Source: an uncultured Pseudomonadota bacterium (GTDB lineage: Bacteria > Pseudomonadota > Gammaproteobacteria > Competibacterales > Competibacteraceae). From it: DNA of 36,823 nucleotides. Both the position numbers and the translations under genes were made by a program. The stretch lies in assembly GCA_903844665.1 (NCBI GenBank), contig CAIMUS010000050.1:1-36823 (forward strand). Reading direction: 5' to 3'. The first letter of the stretch is position 1, and the number at the start of each line of letters is the position of its first letter. Positions 2,767-10,600 of this stretch are shown here, piece after piece. Below the pieces are notes generated by a model. It ran no database searches. It was given only the letters and a program-made list of their open reading frames with translations, and was not told the origin of the DNA.

Positions 2767-2841
2767 TACTTTACATCTCTGTAGGTTGGCACGCGGGTGA
2801 ATGGTATTATTTTGATCTTAATTCTGGTTTGGAGAAGTGGT

Positions 2842-3093
2842 ATGGAAAAGGTCAGGCTTTCATCGAAAGGTCAGGTTATCCTGCCGAAGTCGGTTCGCAA
2901 TGCGCACGGCTGGCAGCCGGGGATGGAGTTCATCATCGAGGAAGTTGCAGAGGGCGTATTGCTGAAACCGTTCAAACCGTTTGAACCAACCCGGCTTGAA
3001 GATGTTATCGGCTGCGCGGGCTATAAAGGGCCGGCCAAGACCCTTGAGGAAATGGAACAGGCCATCGAACGGGGAGTGCGTAGGGTGGGTTAG
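2842..3093 (+). CDS. AbrB/MazE/SpoVT-type antitoxin, orphan
   Basis: An 83-residue swapped-hairpin AbrB-fold protein; the signature VRLSSKGQVILPKSVRNAHGW and GMEFIIEEVAEGVLLKP occupies residues 4-43, followed by a C-terminal toxin-binding tail (TRLEDVIGCAGYKGPAKTLEEMEQAI). It would bind its own promoter and neutralise a PIN-domain VapC-like toxin. No toxin gene follows: the last codons (ERGVRRVG) run into the dispersed repeat at 3079, and the next gene is on the other strand. The start ATG at 2842 has GGAG 8 bases upstream. The partner was probably lost by recombination at the repeat. Confidence 0.8.
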   Translation: MEKVRLSSKGQVILPKSVRNAHGWQPGMEFIIEEVAEGVLLKPFKPFEPTRLEDVIGCAGYKGPAKTLEEMEQAIERGVRRVG

Positions 3094-3116
3094 GCGCTGG
3101 CAGCGCTGTAACCCCC
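3079..3116. repeat. Dispersed palindromic repeat (copy 2)
   Basis: GTAGGGTGGGTTAGGCGCTGG followed by CAGCGCTGTAACCC repeats the first arm of the element at 2696. It overlaps the last codons and stop of the AbrB-type gene. Confidence 0.75.
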
Positions 3117-3135: not shown

Positions 3136-3480
3136 TCAAGGATATTCATTCTTGATGATTTGCCTGATGTCTTTTTCCAATATCGGTACTTTATTGCAGA
3201 CCGCATCCCAAACAACATCATAATCGACGCCAAAATAAGCATGAATCAATCTATCACGCATACCTGCTATTGCTCGCCATTCAATATGCGGATAACGTTG
3301 CCGTATTGAATCAGGGATTTGCTTTGCTGCTTCGCCGATTACTTCAATACTGCGTACAAAGGCACGCTTAAGAGTCTCGTCATGTAAGAATGTATCCTTG
3401 TCAATGCCCTTGACGCTTTTACCGATATACATTGCTTCTTCAAGAATATGGTAAAGGTACTCACGCGCTGTTGGAGCCAT
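3136..3480 (-). CDS. HepT-like HEPN ribonuclease toxin (DUF86)
   Basis: A 114-residue all-helical HEPN protein of the HepT family. The catalytic motif Rx4HxY is present as RDRLIHAY near residue 77. HepT is an RNase toxin that its MNT nucleotidyltransferase partner neutralises by adenylylation of the motif tyrosine. The start ATG at 3480 lies inside the 3' end of the mntA-like gene (20-base overlap), so the two are translated together. The upstream frame to 3510 is unlikely because it would overlap more. It sits directly downstream of its antitoxin and about 100 bases from two dispersed repeats. Confidence 0.9.
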
Positions 3481-3772
3481 ATTCAACCTCACGCAAAATA
3501 TTCGGCCCAATATAGGGACTTAACGATTCCGGCGTGACCAGATCGACACGCCTGCCTAATATTTCCTCCAGGAAGAAAGCAAGGTGCATGAAGTTATCGA
3601 AGGTTTTTTTACCTGTCTCGAATTCAACAAGAATATCTATGTCGCTCTGGGGTTTTTGCCGCCCTTGCACAAAAGAGCCAAACAAGCCATAGCGTTTAAC
3701 TCCAAAGCTTTGCAGATGGGGTTGATGTTTACGGAGAAGCGTAAACACCTGTTCTTTCGTTTGTACCATCAT
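3461..3772 (-). CDS. MntA-like minimal nucleotidyltransferase antitoxin
   Basis: A 103-residue MNT protein with the Pol-beta-type motif GSX10DXD, seen as [20 protein letters not shown] at residues 31-50, and a later conserved acidic position in GRRVDLVTP. These residues coordinate Mg-ATP for AMP transfer onto HepT. It begins with two consecutive ATG codons at 3772 and 3769, preceded by GAGGTGA. The gene pair forms a complete HEPN/MNT toxin-antitoxin module beside the restriction operon; such modules also act in phage defence. Confidence 0.9.
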
Positions 3773-3796: not shown

Positions 3797-3856
3797 CGTA
3801 GGGCGGGTTAGGCGCTGGCAGCGCCGTAACCGTTACGCTACGTTAACGCACTCTAC
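3797..3856. repeat. Dispersed palindromic repeat (copy 3)
   Basis: GTAGGGCGGGTTAGGCGCTGG / CAGCGCCGTAACC followed by GTTACGCTACGTTAACGCAC. It lies between the HEPN/MNT pair and the end of the restriction operon and could also act as a hairpin at the operon's 3' end. Confidence 0.75.
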
Positions 3857-3870
3857 TAATCGGTATATCC

Positions 3871-4863
3871 CTATGCCAAGAACACTTGTCTGAAGCTGTC
3901 GTAGTACTGACCGGCAACTCGGGCACTCATCGCTGCCATGGCGCCGAGTTCGACAGTAAAGCGGACGTCGCTGACCTCATTTGGTACAGGGCCGCGAATG
4001 GCTGGAATCGTGGCAAGATCGTAAAAAACCACGCTTGCCCGGGCAAGATGCTCATCAAACCGATGAGCGAGCACTTGCGGTAGTGTTGCCCCAAGCGATC
4101 CTGCCACCACACTGTGCAGCTTAACTACTAAATCCGGTCGTGCTGTTAGGTGCTTTTCAATACGGAGAATGAGTTCATCGAGAGCAAGCCCGCCGCCAGA
4201 TCGCTCCACGAATACCGATCCCAGAATACCCTCGGTTCCCTCTGGTGGGATGCATTGCTCCATCGAAAATTGGTGCCGACGTTGGCGGAGAGAACTTGTC
4301 TTGACCTCCAGGCGAAGCCTATTAAGGGCGAAGTCGAAATGCTCGAATTGATCCGCTCGCCAAGCCTCCATAAGCCGGATAGGGTTTGTTGCCAGATCGA
4401 TGACAATAAGCTCGCCGAAAAGACCCTGCGGACCCTTGATCGAAGGGTGAGAAAGGCGTTGGAAGAGCGATGCAAGAGCATCAATCGCAGCGACGATTTG
4501 GTCTGTACTGGCCTGTAGTTCTAATTGCTCAAAAATGCGTGCCGCGACAATAAGAAAGTATCGACGCAGTTCTCGATCTTCGGCAAGGCATTCAATGACC
4601 GTTGCTAGTACGTCTTGGCTTTTGTTGTTAAGGGAAAACCGGCATCTGACATTAAAGGTAACACGCAGATGCTGGAGCAGAATTGGGGCATGAACCCGTT
4701 TATCTGGGACCATTTCGATGAGGATCGCTGGGCGATCATCGAGCGTCCGCCCAATTAGCTGATCGGGGCGGCCCGGAAATGGTGCTATGCTGAAGACGCG
4801 CTCATTATCGGCGCTATGCGGCGGTAACGGGAGTGTATTGTACAAATGCTCGAGGTCTATCAC
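3871..4863 (-). CDS. PD-(D/E)XK nuclease of the DUF4420 family (restriction subunit)
   Basis: A 330-residue protein of the DUF4420 'PD-(D/E)XK motif' family. The catalytic core is visible as GLFGEL (E151), FDFAL (D177) and LEVKTSS (E186, K188), giving an E-x(n)-D-x(n)-ExK layout. The N-terminal 140 residues are mixed beta strands and helices with no other motif. It is the last gene of a four-gene operon: its GTG start at 4863 overlaps the TGA stop of the Z1 gene (GTGA), so translation is coupled. Members of this family occur beside Z1 and MORC-like ATPases and are predicted to cut DNA in those restriction systems. Activity is inferred, not shown. Confidence 0.88.
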   Translation of the reverse strand: MIDLEHLYNTLPLPPHSADNERVFSIAPFPGRPDQLIGRTLDDRPAILIEMVPDKRVHAPILLQHLRVTFNVRCRFSLNNKSQDVLATVIECLAEDRELRRYFLIVAARIFEQLELQASTDQIVAAIDALASLFQRLSHPSIKGPQGLFGELIVIDLATNPIRLMEAWRADQFEHFDFALNRLRLEVKTSSLRQRRHQFSMEQCIPPEGTEGILGSVFVERSGGGLALDELILRIEKHLTARPDLVVKLHSVVAGSLGATLPQVLAHRFDEHLARASVVFYDLATIPAIRGPVPNEVSDVRFTVELGAMAAMSARVAGQYYDSFRQVFLA

Positions 4864-7109
4864 ACGTCATTGTCCTGTACGATCCAGCCGGCAGCAAGTC
4901 GAGATGGAACCCACACGGCCACGACCGGAACCTGGGTCGCGAGTTCGGCGTTGTCTACGTCCGTGAGCCTCAATAGGTGAATTTGGATCGTGACCCGGTT
5001 CGGAGCATGAAGTTCACGGTCGCCTGGGTAAATCGATCCACGTCGTACTCGCTCGACCGGATAGGCACCTTGGAAGAGGTTTGTGATCCGACCTTCGCGC
5101 TTCAGGCCACGCTGTCTCTCTTCGCCAGGGCTCATCCGATAGACGTGGCATAATTCGTTCAGATCACGATCTAAGGCGCGTCGTAACTGGAGCATGAGAC
5201 CTGTGAACCGCTGTGCATCGGTCGAAGCAGGGATCTTCAAGGGGATCAGAAGATCCTGAAGAATCGTCTCGAGCCGGATGTCTTGTGCGAGGAGATGCCG
5301 CTGTGCGTCTGTACGGTCTGGATGTCCGTCATCAGGCAACATCTCCAGTCCGTTGAGGAAGTTGCTTACGAGCCAGCGGTTCGCTTCGAGAATATCGGGA
5401 GTTGCGAGCGGATAGGCTGGCGCCAGCCACTCGTTCGATAGCAGTCCTTGCATGTAGTCGAGACGAAGCACATTATGCCGTGTCGGGCGGAGCGACGGCG
5501 ACATGATAAACGCTCGCTTCCATTCGCTCAGAGGACGACCCGGCTGCCGGTATTCTTGAAGCTGGCTACGGATATCCTCCTCGTGTTCGACGTAGTTGTG
5601 AAAGGCATCGATTACATCCGACGGAAGGTAGATCCGGCAATATCCAAGGTACGAGCTTTTGTATCCAAAGAAGCGCCCGCGTTGCTGTAAAGTGTCGGCA
5701 TTGCGAACACCAACGCCTCGGGGCATGTACGTAACCGTTAAGCCCTCAACGGTAAATCCACGATCAACGGCCTGTCCCGCAACAAGGATCCAACTGTAGG
5801 TATCGCTCCATGGCACAAACGGAGTTTTGCCTCCTCTAGCATTCACTTCGAGCACGCGCGTCAATCGGATTGCGCGAGGTAAGACCCCTGAAATTTCGGT
5901 GAAGGAAGGTAATTCTGGTTCAGTGACATGGAGGTCGTTGTAAGCGCTTTGGAATTCTTCCAAGAGTTCGACGGCAGCCGGTGTGTCGGGACGACTGAGA
6001 ATGCTATCCCAATGAGCCTTAACCCGAGACACCCAGCCTGTGTAGGCTGAATGCCGCTCGGTCCGGTGTGAGGGATGGATCAGCATTGAACGGTTACCGC
6101 GTGGATTAGACCGTACATAGTTGGCGGCCACGCCGATCATGAATATGCGTAGAGCCTCAAGCAGTGATGACGGTGGGTCGTCCACTACCTCCGGATCGAC
6201 TGCAAGTTCCTCTTCTGGGATCTCACGCACATAGGTATCCCGTCGCTCAATGAAGAACTCACGTCCGCCCACGTATCCAGATCCGGGCTCCAAGACCTCC
6301 ACGAACTTAGGTGACAAGGTATCGATCAGGCTAATCAAAAGAGGTGCCTGCGGCGTTGCTGTGTATTGTAGGAAGGTATGATGAGGAATGCATTGGCGAA
6401 TTTCGCCAATGCATCGATACGTGGTACTCTCGTCGGCTTGGCGCACTTTCGTATTCATGCTCGCCTGATCGGCCTCGTCATCAATGATGAGAACTGGAGA
6501 CCGTCTGAGATCAACGCCCTGTAGCAAATCGCGTAAATTCGCAAGATGCGTATGATTCTTCATGACAGTAATCAGAGCCGTTAGCTTCTGGTCCATTGGT
6601 GTGGCATCATCATGCCAGTCGCGGAGGATGTCTTGTAAGGTTCGGAGGTCGCGATCTGGGCGAGGGTTGGAGAGCATGGTCCATTTGCGATCCCGAGAGG
6701 TGTCGAGTCTGAGATCCTGGCGAATACGTCTTGTCGACTGATCAAACAATGAGGTGGAGATCCCTGTCATCACAATAACCATTTGGAACCGATTGTCTCG
6801 GGCTAGCGCGGTCACGGTGGTAAACGAGAGCGTCTTGCCACTTTGCACGTAGCCGATCACTAAACCTGTCTCAGTTTGAACTGGGGCGTCCGGCCCGATA
6901 CAGCGCGCTAAGATAGACGCCGAGGCATCTATAATACGCCTCATTATGATTGGGTCTTCGCGACCGCGGAACACATGTTCCAAAAGTTCGTGTGTTTCTG
7001 TCCCTTCGATAGGCTGCCAAATTGCGCCTGCACTATATGCGGGGGCTTGAAGGATAGCGGTGCCTGTCTGCGGCGCAGTTGGCTGTGAAGAATAATGATC
7101 TGGGGTCAT
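4860..7109 (-). CDS. Z1 domain-containing helicase-like ATPase
   Basis: A 749-residue superfamily-II-like ATPase with the Z1 domain. Visible motifs are the Z1 Walker A variant GYVQSGKT (86-93), Walker B DDEAD (210-214), the TATPQA motif III (250-255), GQAVDRGFT (445-453) and the arginine-finger motif QQRGRFFGYK (475-484). Z1 proteins are predicted to translocate on or remodel DNA in MORC/MutL-linked restriction-modification systems. The ATG at 7109 overlaps the stop of the upstream ATPase gene as ATGA, and its own stop overlaps the nuclease start, so all three downstream genes form one translation-coupled unit. Length and motif order are complete; no damage is seen. Confidence 0.92.
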   Translation of the reverse strand: MTPDHYSSQPTAPQTGTAILQAPAYSAGAIWQPIEGTETHELLEHVFRGREDPIIMRRIIDASASILARCIGPDAPVQTETGLVIGYVQSGKTLSFTTVTALARDNRFQMVIVMTGISTSLFDQSTRRIRQDLRLDTSRDRKWTMLSNPRPDRDLRTLQDILRDWHDDATPMDQKLTALITVMKNHTHLANLRDLLQGVDLRRSPVLIIDDEADQASMNTKVRQADESTTYRCIGEIRQCIPHHTFLQYTATPQAPLLISLIDTLSPKFVEVLEPGSGYVGGREFFIERRDTYVREIPEEELAVDPEVVDDPPSSLLEALRIFMIGVAANYVRSNPRGNRSMLIHPSHRTERHSAYTGWVSRVKAHWDSILSRPDTPAAVELLEEFQSAYNDLHVTEPELPSFTEISGVLPRAIRLTRVLEVNARGGKTPFVPWSDTYSWILVAGQAVDRGFTVEGLTVTYMPRGVGVRNADTLQQRGRFFGYKSSYLGYCRIYLPSDVIDAFHNYVEHEEDIRSQLQEYRQPGRPLSEWKRAFIMSPSLRPTRHNVLRLDYMQGLLSNEWLAPAYPLATPDILEANRWLVSNFLNGLEMLPDDGHPDRTDAQRHLLAQDIRLETILQDLLIPLKIPASTDAQRFTGLMLQLRRALDRDLNELCHVYRMSPGEERQRGLKREGRITNLFQGAYPVERVRRGSIYPGDRELHAPNRVTIQIHLLRLTDVDNAELATQVPVVAVWVPSRLAAGWIVQDNDV

Positions 7110-8647
7110 GGTTGTGAAAGAGCCTCAGCAATGATGTCATTAACATTTTGTAGAAACACGCTAGAGCCTTTATACCCGACCTCTCGGGTGACAACCTCAG
7201 CAACCCCAAGGGCCGCAGCAAGGCGTAGCAGCGCGTCGGTATCCTCAGTATCCGTGCCGGCGAATCGCACCATAAATGGGTGCGCCATTGAGACCCGAAG
7301 ACCTAAACGTCGCGGCTCTTCATGAATGCCAGCAGATGGTTTATCGCTGATCTGCATCCAGTCAGCAGCCTCATCGTTAGTAAGTTCAATGGTAATTTGC
7401 CATGCCTCGCCTCGGAAATGAACATTGATTATCCGAGAGGCAAGTTGGGTTTGTGGCTCCGGAAGTATCTGCGGTGGAGACATTGGCAAAGGCAGCCTTG
7501 CTTCAATCCCAGCAAAAGCATTTTCCAAACCTGCCTTTAGTGCATCAGCAGTACTCGAGACGGCTTCGGTGGCCGCCCGTGTCAACTGGCCCCGCGATGA
7601 ACGGGCACGATAGCCTTCTGCCTGCTTCAAGAGCGGCATGTCATCCGAGTCAAGATGCTCCTTTAGCAAGTCTAGGAATGGTTGTTCGTTATCATCCCAA
7701 CGGAACCCATCCTTTGTATGAGAGACCTTAAAACCTTCCAGATGAAGCTCTCCGAACAAGCGTTGATATCTATAGCTGTTGGCGTTGCCAAAGATGATAT
7801 CCGGTCGGTAACCCTCGTCGCCGCTGCCTTGAATAAGCCGACCGCGCCGGAAAAGGGCAAAGCCAGCGCGTGATGTACTACCGACCGCTCGAATTGCTGC
7901 AAACCCGTGAACATTGAGATCGTTACCAAAGTCGAAACTAATGTCTTTACGCCATGATCGGAGTTGTCCATCTGGCTCTCGGTAATAAGGTGCCATAAGA
8001 ACTGCCGGATCTTCATACTGTAACAACCGGCCATCAAAAAAAAGGTCAAGTGCTCCGCCACGAATAAAGACGCGGTAGATATCCGTGAGATGCTCTCTGA
8101 TTTTGCTAAGTGTACGTCCCATAGGCCGCCGATGCAGATCCTCTAAGATAATTTCTGTGTAATGTTCCTCAATTCGTGCCAGTCGTTCTTCAATTGCGAG
8201 TTCGCTGATATCATCATTTACAATCTGATTAATGTCGAATTTGATGGTGCGTTGAATAGCTTCATTCAATGCCTTTGTTCGTACTTGCCAACGAGATGCA
8301 AACCAACAGGCAGCACTTTTCATGCCCATCCCAAACTCGGATAAGCCATTTTGGTATGGTGGTACAGCGGCAGGTCGAAAAGCACGAGCGTAATCACTCG
8401 CGGCAATTCCTGCGGCGTTGTCACGAATAACCAATCGGGGTATCGGCGAATCGTGAAGTTCAATAGTAACTTTGAGTTTCACTCGGGAGCCGTGAAGAAC
8501 AGCTAGTGCCTCTCGGTGCATGGAGAAACTCTGGAGCGAGTTATCGACAAATTCTGCTAAGGCAAACCACGGCTTATAGTTCAGATGGCGTAAAACACTT
8601 AGAACACTGACCCCAGGTCTAATATTGACGGTCCTGATGGTTATCAT
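7106..8647 (-). CDS. MORC/MutL-like GHKL ATPase of a restriction-modification system
   Basis: A 513-residue ATP-binding protein with a GHKL (HATPase_c) domain at the N-terminus: N-box ALAEFVDNSLQS (E32, N36), G1 box IRDNAAGI (76-81) and G2 box EFGMGMKSAA (104-113). An S5-like middle domain carries a conserved Lys-containing stretch, SHTKDGFRW, near residues 315-325, and a variable C-terminus follows. Prokaryotic MORC-like ATPases are thought to act as ATP-gated clamps that couple modification sensing to nuclease action. It begins 23 bases after the methyltransferase stop. The final four bases overlap the Z1 gene. Confidence 0.88.
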   Translation of the reverse strand: MITIRTVNIRPGVSVLSVLRHLNYKPWFALAEFVDNSLQSFSMHREALAVLHGSRVKLKVTIELHDSPIPRLVIRDNAAGIAASDYARAFRPAAVPPYQNGLSEFGMGMKSAACWFASRWQVRTKALNEAIQRTIKFDINQIVNDDISELAIEERLARIEEHYTEIILEDLHRRPMGRTLSKIREHLTDIYRVFIRGGALDLFFDGRLLQYEDPAVLMAPYYREPDGQLRSWRKDISFDFGNDLNVHGFAAIRAVGSTSRAGFALFRRGRLIQGSGDEGYRPDIIFGNANSYRYQRLFGELHLEGFKVSHTKDGFRWDDNEQPFLDLLKEHLDSDDMPLLKQAEGYRARSSRGQLTRAATEAVSSTADALKAGLENAFAGIEARLPLPMSPPQILPEPQTQLASRIINVHFRGEAWQITIELTNDEAADWMQISDKPSAGIHEEPRRLGLRVSMAHPFMVRFAGTDTEDTDALLRLAAALGVAEVVTREVGYKGSSVFLQNVNDIIAEALSQP

Positions 8648-8670
8648 GCTAATTCCAACCTATCACGCTC

Positions 8671-10032
8671 TTATGGTGTGATCAATATTGGCTCATAGCC
8701 GCCAAGAATGTGACCCGGAACTACGGTCAGTAGCTCTCCAGATACACAATGATCTTCTAAATCTTTAGGTCTCTCACCAACAAGTTGGCAGGCTATTGCT
8801 TCAACAACATCGACGTTCACTGCATTACCGAGTGCCTTATAGGTGGCTGTTTGTGTCGCCGGCAAGTGAATAAGTTCACCCATACTCTGAAGCCGTGCGC
8901 ACTCCCGCATTGTCATATAGCGGCGCTCCCAGGGAATAACAGGAATTTGGCTTGTGGTGAGTGCTACTAAGGACGGCGCGGCGGTTGGACGCTTCGCCCT
9001 AATGCCGGATGCACGGAACTGAATAATGGTTTTCCATAGATTTCGAGGGCCACCTTTCCAATTCCATTCGAGCTTCTGAAAACTAGGTGCAAATTCACGA
9101 ATCGAGGGTAACCAAGTATCGATCACCTTATTATGGCGCTGGTAAAATGCTCTATTCTGCTCAATAAAATGGATCTTCCAATTCGGAAAAGCTGGGGAGG
9201 GATCTCGTGCGTAAGCAGGAAGCGCGGCTAGCATATTATCGGGCGAGAGACCTTTCAGTGGTACCCCAAATGCACCTTTGAACAAACTGATATTCAGGAG
9301 ACCATGATGGATAGGTGTGCCAGTCGAGATTGGATAGGTCGCTCCGAATTCCATTGCCCAGATGGGAAATGATGGAAGGTTTTCATGTTCTGGGAGTTGA
9401 TCCAGAAGGTGTTGCCAAGCCTCAAGATATCGAATGAAAGAAGCGGAGAGCGGTTTTGCGTCATTCGGATGCTTGTCTAATACGGAGCAAATGTTGAGAT
9501 CTTCAGATTTATGTGTTGCTTTAGGAGGTTCAAATTTACTAAGCCCATATCGGTCGCCAATAATAAAAGCGCGCTCTCGGATCTGAGGTACACCGAACAT
9601 GTGTGGAGAAAGGCATATTAAATTAATGTCGTAGCCGACTCCATGCAATTGCTTCTCGACTTGCCACCAGGTTTTACCACTAGCATGCCTCGTTAAGTTC
9701 GGAACATTTTCAATGATTAAAAAACGAGGGGCATGTTGCTCAAGGATCTTGATGACATAGCCAAATAGATCACCCCACTGCGGGCACTCGAATCCTTTCT
9801 GACCGCCTGCTTTTGAAAATGGCTGGCATGGAAAGCCTGCACACAGGATATCATGTGAGGGCACACTGCTATAACATGTGCGGATGTCCCCAGTAGGTCT
9901 CAGCCCAAAATTTTTTTCATAAATATAGGCAAGTTCTGGATCGATTTCGGATGCAAACACACATTCATGGCCAAGACGACTTAGGGCTAGATGGAAACCT
10001 CCGAGACCAGCGAACAGATCGATAAATCTCAT
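8671..10032 (-). CDS. DNA (cytosine-5-)-methyltransferase
   Basis: A 453-residue C5-cytosine methylase. Motifs in order: I ([10 protein letters not shown], near 5-14), IV with catalytic Cys ([12 protein letters not shown], Cys 69), VI (ENVPN, about 108), VIII ([10 protein letters not shown], 150-159), a long target-recognition region of about 180 residues, and IX-X ([11 protein letters not shown] and [16 protein letters not shown]). It protects host DNA from the downstream MORC/Z1/DUF4420 machinery. The recognition sequence cannot be read from the protein. Start choice: ATG at 10032, immediately preceded by an in-frame GTG at 10035; a weak GAAAG lies about 12 bases upstream. It is the first gene of the operon. 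The region is less GC-rich than flanking genes, suggesting acquisition by transfer. Confidence 0.93.
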
Positions 10033-10035
10033 CAC

Positions 10036-10475: not shown

Positions 10476-10551
10476 GTAGGAGCGAGCTTGCTCACGAATC
10501 CGGCCAAGTTGCCGCCGTGCGCTCCCTTCGCGAGCAAGCCCGCTCCTACGA
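10476..10551. repeat. REPIN-like element, GTAGGAGCG family (copy 1)
   Basis: Two inverted REP units, GTAGGAGCGAGCTTGCTC and GCGAGCAAGCCCGCTCCTAC, flank a short variable core. The layout matches Pseudomonas-type REP doublets (REPINs) that are mobilised by RAYT proteins. Further copies are at 13546-13620 and, more degenerate, at 28900-28976. No RAYT gene is in the window. Confidence 0.85.
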
Positions 10552-10600
10552 ACAACGGTAGCGAAAACCTCCGGCAGTTGCAATTGCGCCCATACCCAAC

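Follow-up and report, generated by a model that had tools for sequence, protein, structure and literature searches.

The window analyzed here, a stretch of 36,823 nucleotides from an uncultured member of the Competibacteraceae, contains an intact operon of four genes that quite probably encodes a horizontally acquired, ATP-dependent restriction-modification system, much like CglI and NgoAVII, in which a MORC-family ATPase would serve as an added clamp. The four minus-strand ORFs are all co-directional, and the transcription order in the window sequence is DCM>MORC>Z1>DUF4420:

8671–10032, minus strand: C5-cytosine DNA methyltransferase (DCM), ATG start at 10032, GTG start possible at 10035
8648–8670, minus strand: gap of 23 bp between the DCM and MORC genes, without overlap (sequence)
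7106–8647, minus strand: MORC-family GHKL ATPase (GHKL, S5, and a variable C-terminal part)
7106–7109, minus strand: ATGA overlap of the MORC stop and the Z1 start (sequence)
4860–7109, minus strand: Z1 protein, SF2 helicase/translocase of 749 aa (Pfam Z1, AlphaFold model)
4860–4863, minus strand: GTGA overlap of the Z1 stop and the DUF4420 start (sequence)
3871–4863, minus strand: DUF4420 protein (Pfam DUF4420, model)

An earlier note on this DNA had placed four co-directional minus-strand ORFs at these same coordinates, and the sequence bears this out. It had also described all four genes as joined by overlaps, which holds for the two overlapping junctions listed above, whereas the DCM and MORC genes are spaced apart. 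All four proteins scored above their Pfam cut-offs (DCM: DNA_methylase, 218.8 bits, cut-off 22; MORC protein: HATPase_c_3, 56.6 bits, cut-off 25; 4860–7109: Z1, 139.7 bits, cut-off 25; 3871–4863: DUF4420, 88.0 bits, cut-off 27), and these matches, together with the motifs of all four, support the proposed assignment to the MORC/Z1/DUF4420/DCM operons. The motifs had been called intact, and indeed the active-site residues are all kept and match invariant positions in up to 40 relatives. The reported lack of AIPR and Vsr genes at the locus was also correct and extends to the whole host assembly (4.88 Mb, 348 contigs, 98.9% complete), where profile searches detected neither AIPR (PF10592) nor Vsr (PF03852); both searches gave matches in other genomes of the same batch. 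We conclude that all four genes are genuine and intact and that their identification was right.

The DCM also matched TIGR00675 (206.9 bits) and contains the C5 methyltransferase motifs I, IV (PCQ, with C70), VI (ENV), VIII (QxRxR, here QIRER), and X (GNAV, here GNAVN). Its catalytic residues are invariant in 30 relatives, save one Q-to-H exchange. The best PADLOC match was DruM2 (253 bits, residues 2–425), and this whole-length likeness to the Druantia methylase includes the target-recognition region (TRD), which is of a DruM2-like type; no other Druantia gene is present at the window locus. Among the relatives compared, the mean identity was 48% for the TRD versus 58% for the catalytic part. 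Given this conservation of the TRD, one shared target motif is predicted for the 31 listed loci with a methylase of this type, and the enzymes of Enterobacter, Thioclava, and Rathayibacter are expected to share it.

MORC proteins are GHKL-S5 ATPases of the MutL/topoisomerase/Hsp90 kind, and their animal and plant members act in DNA silencing and compaction. For the bacterial relatives of MORC, a function in restriction systems was predicted in 2008, with DNA looping between recognition and cleavage sites as their proposed role (PMC2292703), and we found no test of a bacterial MORC in restriction among the open-licence papers searched. The window protein combines the GHKL motifs with the S5 sequence GFALFRRGRLI, which fits the signature GhXhhpXXRhl that was defined for the family (PMC2292703). 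Residues E32, N36, D76, G106, G108, K110, R270, and K312 are invariant across the relatives. No solved MORC structure provided a usable sequence match for this protein.

The Z1 protein carries a Walker A motif (G86..K92-T93), a DEAD-like Walker B motif (D210-D-E-D214), motif III (T250-A-T252), and the arginines of motif VI (Q476/R477/R479, within QQRGRFFG), as typical of Z1-type SF2 helicases. A sequence search for solved structures found none matching this protein. The AlphaFold model (33 sequences; mean pLDDT 89.3, pTM 0.85) has three predicted parts:

about residues 79–275: RecA1
residues 315–525: Pfam Z1, corresponding to RecA2 with a helical insert (about 351–416)
residues 531–749: C-terminal domain

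In VIA-align comparisons, the model reached Z-scores up to 17.1 to the SF2 motors RIG-I, FANCM, Mfd, RadD, and RecG, and the fold alignment spans both RecA lobes (residues 32–530). DDX6 and eIF4A, whose fold comprises just two RecA lobes, aligned with Z-scores of 14–15 over about 330 residues within 32–509. The top Foldseek rows included HsdR of EcoR124I and the type ISP enzyme LlaBIII, both of which are ATP-dependent restriction motors. Since Pfam Z1 falls at residues 315–525 of a model that aligns to these two-lobe proteins, the model points to the “Z1 domain” being RecA lobe two of an SF2 translocase. If true, Z1 would no longer count as a domain of its own but as the motor's RecA2 lobe, and the Z1 proteins of MZA and CglI could be interpreted in the same concrete terms. 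The view that Z1 biochemistry is poorly known can thus be narrowed, as this predicted RecA2 lobe is complemented by published biochemistry of the CglI/NgoAVII N/H proteins (PMC4267653, PMC5737866).

The DUF4420 model (31 sequences; pLDDT 93.5) comprises two domains:

residues 1–138: N-terminal domain, beta-rich (model)
residues 139–330: PD-(D/E)XK nuclease domain with E151, D177, and E186-x-K188

The best VIA rows were all PD-(D/E)XK nucleases (Hjc, Z 7.2; SPARDA nuclease, 6.2; DpnI, 6.1; EcoRV, 5.1), and BglI and HincII were also among the best structural matches; the similarities are modest, with a best Z of 7.2 and Foldseek E-values above 0.1, but they form a coherent list. E151, D177, and K188 are invariant in 34 of 34 relatives, and position 186 is E or D. 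The DUF4420 profile, the E-D-(E/D)xK site, and the restriction-endonuclease fold of the model indicate a PD-(D/E)XK nuclease that carries an additional N-terminal domain. The novel RE-fold nuclease that Iyer et al. described for their third type of MORC operon now goes by the name DUF4420. The sequence search for solved structures found none matching DUF4420, and no B3-like site-reading domain, as in R.CglI, was found in the window system.

When 398 genomes of the phylum were searched with the 749-aa Z1 protein, full-length relatives at 40–50% identity appeared in two loci (L003 and L004), along with many longer Z1 proteins that match the window Z1 in the motor core only. An alignment of the full-length relatives then served to scan GTDB contigs and IMG/VR; with two plasmid records added, at least about 95 loci with flanks were collected. 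Our own profiles for the four proteins, AIPR, and Vsr revealed a sharp split, with Z1 scores of 281–1231 bits in at least 40 loci, the remaining 55 large Z1 proteins scoring 165–254 bits. Among the loci listed, the median Z1 length was 743 aa in the short group and 923 aa in the long, MZA-type group. The short-Z1 loci, at least 40 in number, cover at least eight phyla and come from Pseudomonadota, Acidobacteriota, Actinomycetota, Bacteroidota, Chloroflexota, Planctomycetota, Ca. Levyibacteriota, Ca. Poribacteria, and unassigned viral contigs. Close relatives occur in cultured strains of Enterobacter cancerogenus, Rathayibacter, Labedella, Thioclava, Flavobacterium, and Pedobacter. In Rathayibacter festucae the same four genes are annotated on a 45-kb plasmid. 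No copy of the operon was found in E. coli at megablast sensitivity.

Of the 96 Z1 proteins placed in a maximum-likelihood tree by a quick search with SH-aLRT support, those of the short-Z1 group form one side of a branch with a support of 98, apart from the long Z1 proteins of MZA-type systems. Motif VI reads DT(I/L/V)QQR(A/G)RFFG in the short branch and DTL(M/L)QMGRWFG in the long one. Two CglI-like loci (L058, L060) and NgoAVII-N join beside the short-Z1 branch (support 100), although the placement of NgoAVII-N is weak because of its very long branch and is regarded as tentative. On this tree AIPR changed twice and was confined, among the loci listed, to one subclade of the long branch, where its gene comes immediately after DUF4420 or Z1 in 17 of 55 long-Z1 loci; it occurs in none of the 40 short-Z1 loci listed. 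Vsr, which lies directly upstream of the DCM in 5 of these 40 loci, is sporadic, with 19 changes. The suggestion that Vsr/AIPR-free versions form a clade is therefore supported for the lack of AIPR, whereas a clade of Vsr-free loci is not supported. A division of the MORC partners into paraMORCs (long Z1) and MORCs (short Z1) was rejected, as the S5 signature was present in 34 of 35 short-Z1 and 19 of 19 long-Z1 partners, placing both in the MORC family; the match in the short-Z1 partner of L057 was spurious and lay elsewhere in the protein.

According to gene-order counts tallied by hand from the locus lists, the MORC gene immediately precedes Z1 in all 39 testable short-Z1 loci, and DUF4420 immediately follows Z1 in 34 of 37. 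A DCM of the window type is present in 31 of the 40 loci listed, and the exact order DCM>MORC>Z1>DUF4420 in 25, an order that recurs across at least eight phyla. Other DCMs, often paired, were found in L040, L053, L054, L055, and L056. In two Hymenobacter loci an HNH endonuclease replaces DUF4420 (L032, 12146–13027; L057, downstream of Z1), and L056 has neither nuclease after Z1. HNH genes, related or other, also follow DUF4420 in L038, L041, L117, and L121. Pairwise identities of the four proteins were correlated across the 25 complete loci (Spearman 0.49–0.86; none of 2000 permutations reached the observed correlation for any protein pair), most strongly for Z1 and MORC (rho = 0.86) and least for DUF4420 and DCM (0.49), which means that the set is inherited largely as a unit with MORC and Z1 as the tightest pair. 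The recurring gene order and the correlated identities exceed what chance would give. The four-gene minimum proposed earlier thus stands in part: by gene content, MORC and Z1 are the constant core, whereas the nuclease and the methylase are exchangeable modules. In L119 (8394–14658) MORC-Z1-DUF4420 lie on one strand and a DCM of the usual type is convergent on the opposite strand, and this divided operon shows that a separate promoter can drive the methylase.

Methylase swaps did not reveal the site-reading domain, as divergence at such swaps gave no systematic signal in 150 pairs. L054 (13412–15591) has two unrelated C5 methylases downstream of MORC-Z1-DUF4420, and its closest relatives, L038 and L039, have the usual single DCM upstream; this natural swap is useful for mapping target specificity. 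The DUF4420 N-terminal domain of L054 is about 10 points under expectation against L038/L039 (2.4 sd, one event), and it is similarly low in L033/L051, which share the same methylase, so that the N-terminal domain as site reader is a weak lead.

As far as the published description goes, the window locus has the composition of the third type of MORC operon described by Iyer, Abhiman and Aravind (2008), with the same four kinds of genes: MORC, an SF2-Z1 helicase, an RE-fold nuclease with E-D-ExK, and a cytosine methylase (PMC2292703). The differences are that Vsr and AIPR, listed there as frequent partners, are both missing from the window locus, and that the window sequence DTLQQRGRFFG fits the Z1 signature DThhQXuRhFG of the same study at 10 of 11 positions, with Q for the second h, whereas the long branch keeps the original. 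Compared with the MZA system (mzaABCDE), three window genes are homologous to MzaB (MORC), MzaC (Z1), and MzaD (DUF4420). The MZA models scored only 20, 101, and 16 bits on these homologues (NCBIfam cut-offs 850, 1500, and 420, respectively), AIPR (MzaE) is missing and no sigma-like MzaA was seen, and the MZA Z1 is about 180 aa longer and occupies a separate tree branch. With scores this far under the cut-offs and AIPR absent, the window locus is ruled out as an MZA system. AIPR-bearing long-Z1 loci also remained under the strict MZA cut-offs, yet scored far higher (e.g., 359/691/125). One side match concerns the MzaB-like ATPase of L063 (8185–9663), which weakly matched the NCBIfam BbrUII/HgiDII model over its GHKL part (41 bits, cut-off 550), hinting that the BbrUII/HgiDII type II enzymes may carry a GHKL domain.

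The putative Z1-DUF4420-methylase system of Miller et al. 2022 shares the core of Z1, a PD-(D/E)XK DUF protein, and a cytosine methylase, but its Z1 has about 925 aa and one of its types includes AIPR, as in the long branch, so that the window locus is outside by size (PMC9523054). As an operon type, the composition dates back to a prediction of 2008, and MZA and the 2022 prediction (PMC9523054) cover the long-Z1, partly AIPR-bearing relatives. The short-Z1, AIPR-free branch was found neither separated nor named in the open-licence literature. We see about an even chance that this branch is a separate, cross-phylum type of ATP-dependent restriction-modification system outside the MZA models, with a MORC clamp and a two-RecA-lobe Z1 translocase as its irreducible core and an exchangeable nuclease (DUF4420/HNH) and methylase. 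If so, it would be the simplest known setting for a MORC ATPase working in DNA restriction.

The closest functional guide is provided by CglI, NgoAVII, and BceSIV, which share with the window locus a C5 methylase, a separate nuclease, and a separate SF2-Z1 ATPase. In CglI/NgoAVII, the ATPase and the nuclease depend on one another as well as on ATP and unmethylated target DNA; the ATPase of N/H.CglI (DEAD, Z1, and C parts) is stimulated only with the nuclease partner on unmethylated, site-bearing DNA, dimerizes through its Z1 part, and supports a cleavage that involves translocation (PMC4267653, PMC5737866). The window locus is not of the CglI/NgoAVII type itself, as the nuclease there is a PLD-type protein with a B3 site-reading domain and MORC is absent, whereas the window combines a PD-(D/E)XK nuclease with MORC. 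By analogy with CglI/NgoAVII, the window Z1 would be the motor, DUF4420 the nuclease, and the DCM the protecting methylase. The DCM would methylate cytosine in a target sequence on the host DNA, and a complex of Z1, MORC, and DUF4420 would recognize this site on unmethylated incoming DNA. Upon ATP binding the MORC GHKL-S5 dimer would close around the DNA as an ATP-gated clamp, while Z1 would act as an SF2 double-strand-DNA translocase with two RecA lobes. The complex would hydrolyze ATP and move along or loop the DNA, and the DUF4420 PD-(D/E)XK nuclease would cut the unmethylated molecule. Beyond gene identity and predicted fold, we infer complex formation, methyl-sensitivity, translocation, cleavage, and phage or plasmid restriction. 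As the operon is intact, AIPR-free, and has cultured relatives, it can be tested which of the four parts suffice, what MORC contributes, and by which subunit the site is recognized.

Abortive infection, without classical restriction, is another way in which conserved defence-type operons can work. The operon might thus be a signalling defence that shares parts with MZA, in which the methylase marks self and sensing of invading DNA triggers general DNA damage or growth arrest instead of cuts at sites in unmodified foreign DNA. The homology of MzaB, MzaC, and MzaD to the three non-methylase genes points in this direction, as does AIPR, an abortive-infection family (PMC2292703, PMC9523054), in MZA. 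However, AIPR is absent from all 40 short-Z1 loci listed and from the host genome, and a cognate methylase of one family in 31 listed loci is expected for methylation-based discrimination of self and non-self, so that we consider this explanation unlikely.

Still less probable is silencing or condensation instead of cleavage, in which unmethylated plasmid or phage DNA would be loaded with MORC and the Z1 motor and compacted by them, the nuclease being secondary. Eukaryotic MORC proteins have been reported to load on and compact DNA, and it would fit such silencing that MORC and the motor are the sole invariant pair with the strongest co-inheritance and that the nuclease is replaced in two listed loci and absent in one. 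Yet a nuclease with intact residues directly follows in nearly all testable loci listed (34/37), and in Hymenobacter it is another nuclease, HNH, that takes the place of DUF4420. Damaged copies do exist among the relatives, with a split Z1 in L032 and L121 and an IS element in L114, but that the window locus is a decayed or orphan system with an active methylase and an inactive restriction part is very improbable, as its four ORFs are full-length, its two translational overlaps are present, and all checked invariant residues are kept. ATP-dependent restriction-modification is thus the reading that we prefer.

The GC content of the operon is 0.51 versus 0.59 for the rest of the window, and no short Z1 was present in the other searched genomes of the host's family, a few of which have a long Z1. 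Both observations fit a recent horizontal acquisition. Directly downstream of DUF4420, on the same strand and with a GC content of 0.43, lies a second defence-type module:

3136–3510 and 3461–3772, minus strand: HepT-like RNase toxin / MntA-like nucleotidyltransferase antitoxin (PADLOC PDC-S09)

Operon and MntA/HepT pair fit a small, recently acquired defence cluster. An exact 19-nt repeat, GCGCTGCCAGCGCCTAACC, occurs on the minus strand at 2701–2719, 3088–3106, and 3806–3824 (0.05 copies expected by chance). Its copies lie inside a hairpin-like REP-type element around a MazE-like gene (2797–3093) and the MntA/HepT pair, and an 18-mer of the repeat has only one other, imperfect copy in the genome. 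A REP-like palindrome (GTAGGAGCGGGCTTGCTCGCGAA...GTGAGCAAGCTCGCTCCTAC) is located at about 10500–10570 between a BtuF-like gene and the operon, near the GC shift. Relatives gave no empty site from which to date the insertion point, because the family does not conserve the BtuF-like neighbour.

Directly beside the DCM of other short-Z1 operons we observed a large serine recombinase and a small conserved ORF (L116, 4856–7009; L118, 6377–6760; L120, 4459–6676; L114, 3677–5529; L119, 14549–17081), with a DUF2924 gene in L119 and L120. This neighbourhood suggests a mobile module that carries the short-Z1 operon. The IMG/VR matches do not indicate carriage by phages, since in most of them the end of the operon coincides with the provirus boundary, next to a serine recombinase; these loci may be mobile islands miscalled as provirus.
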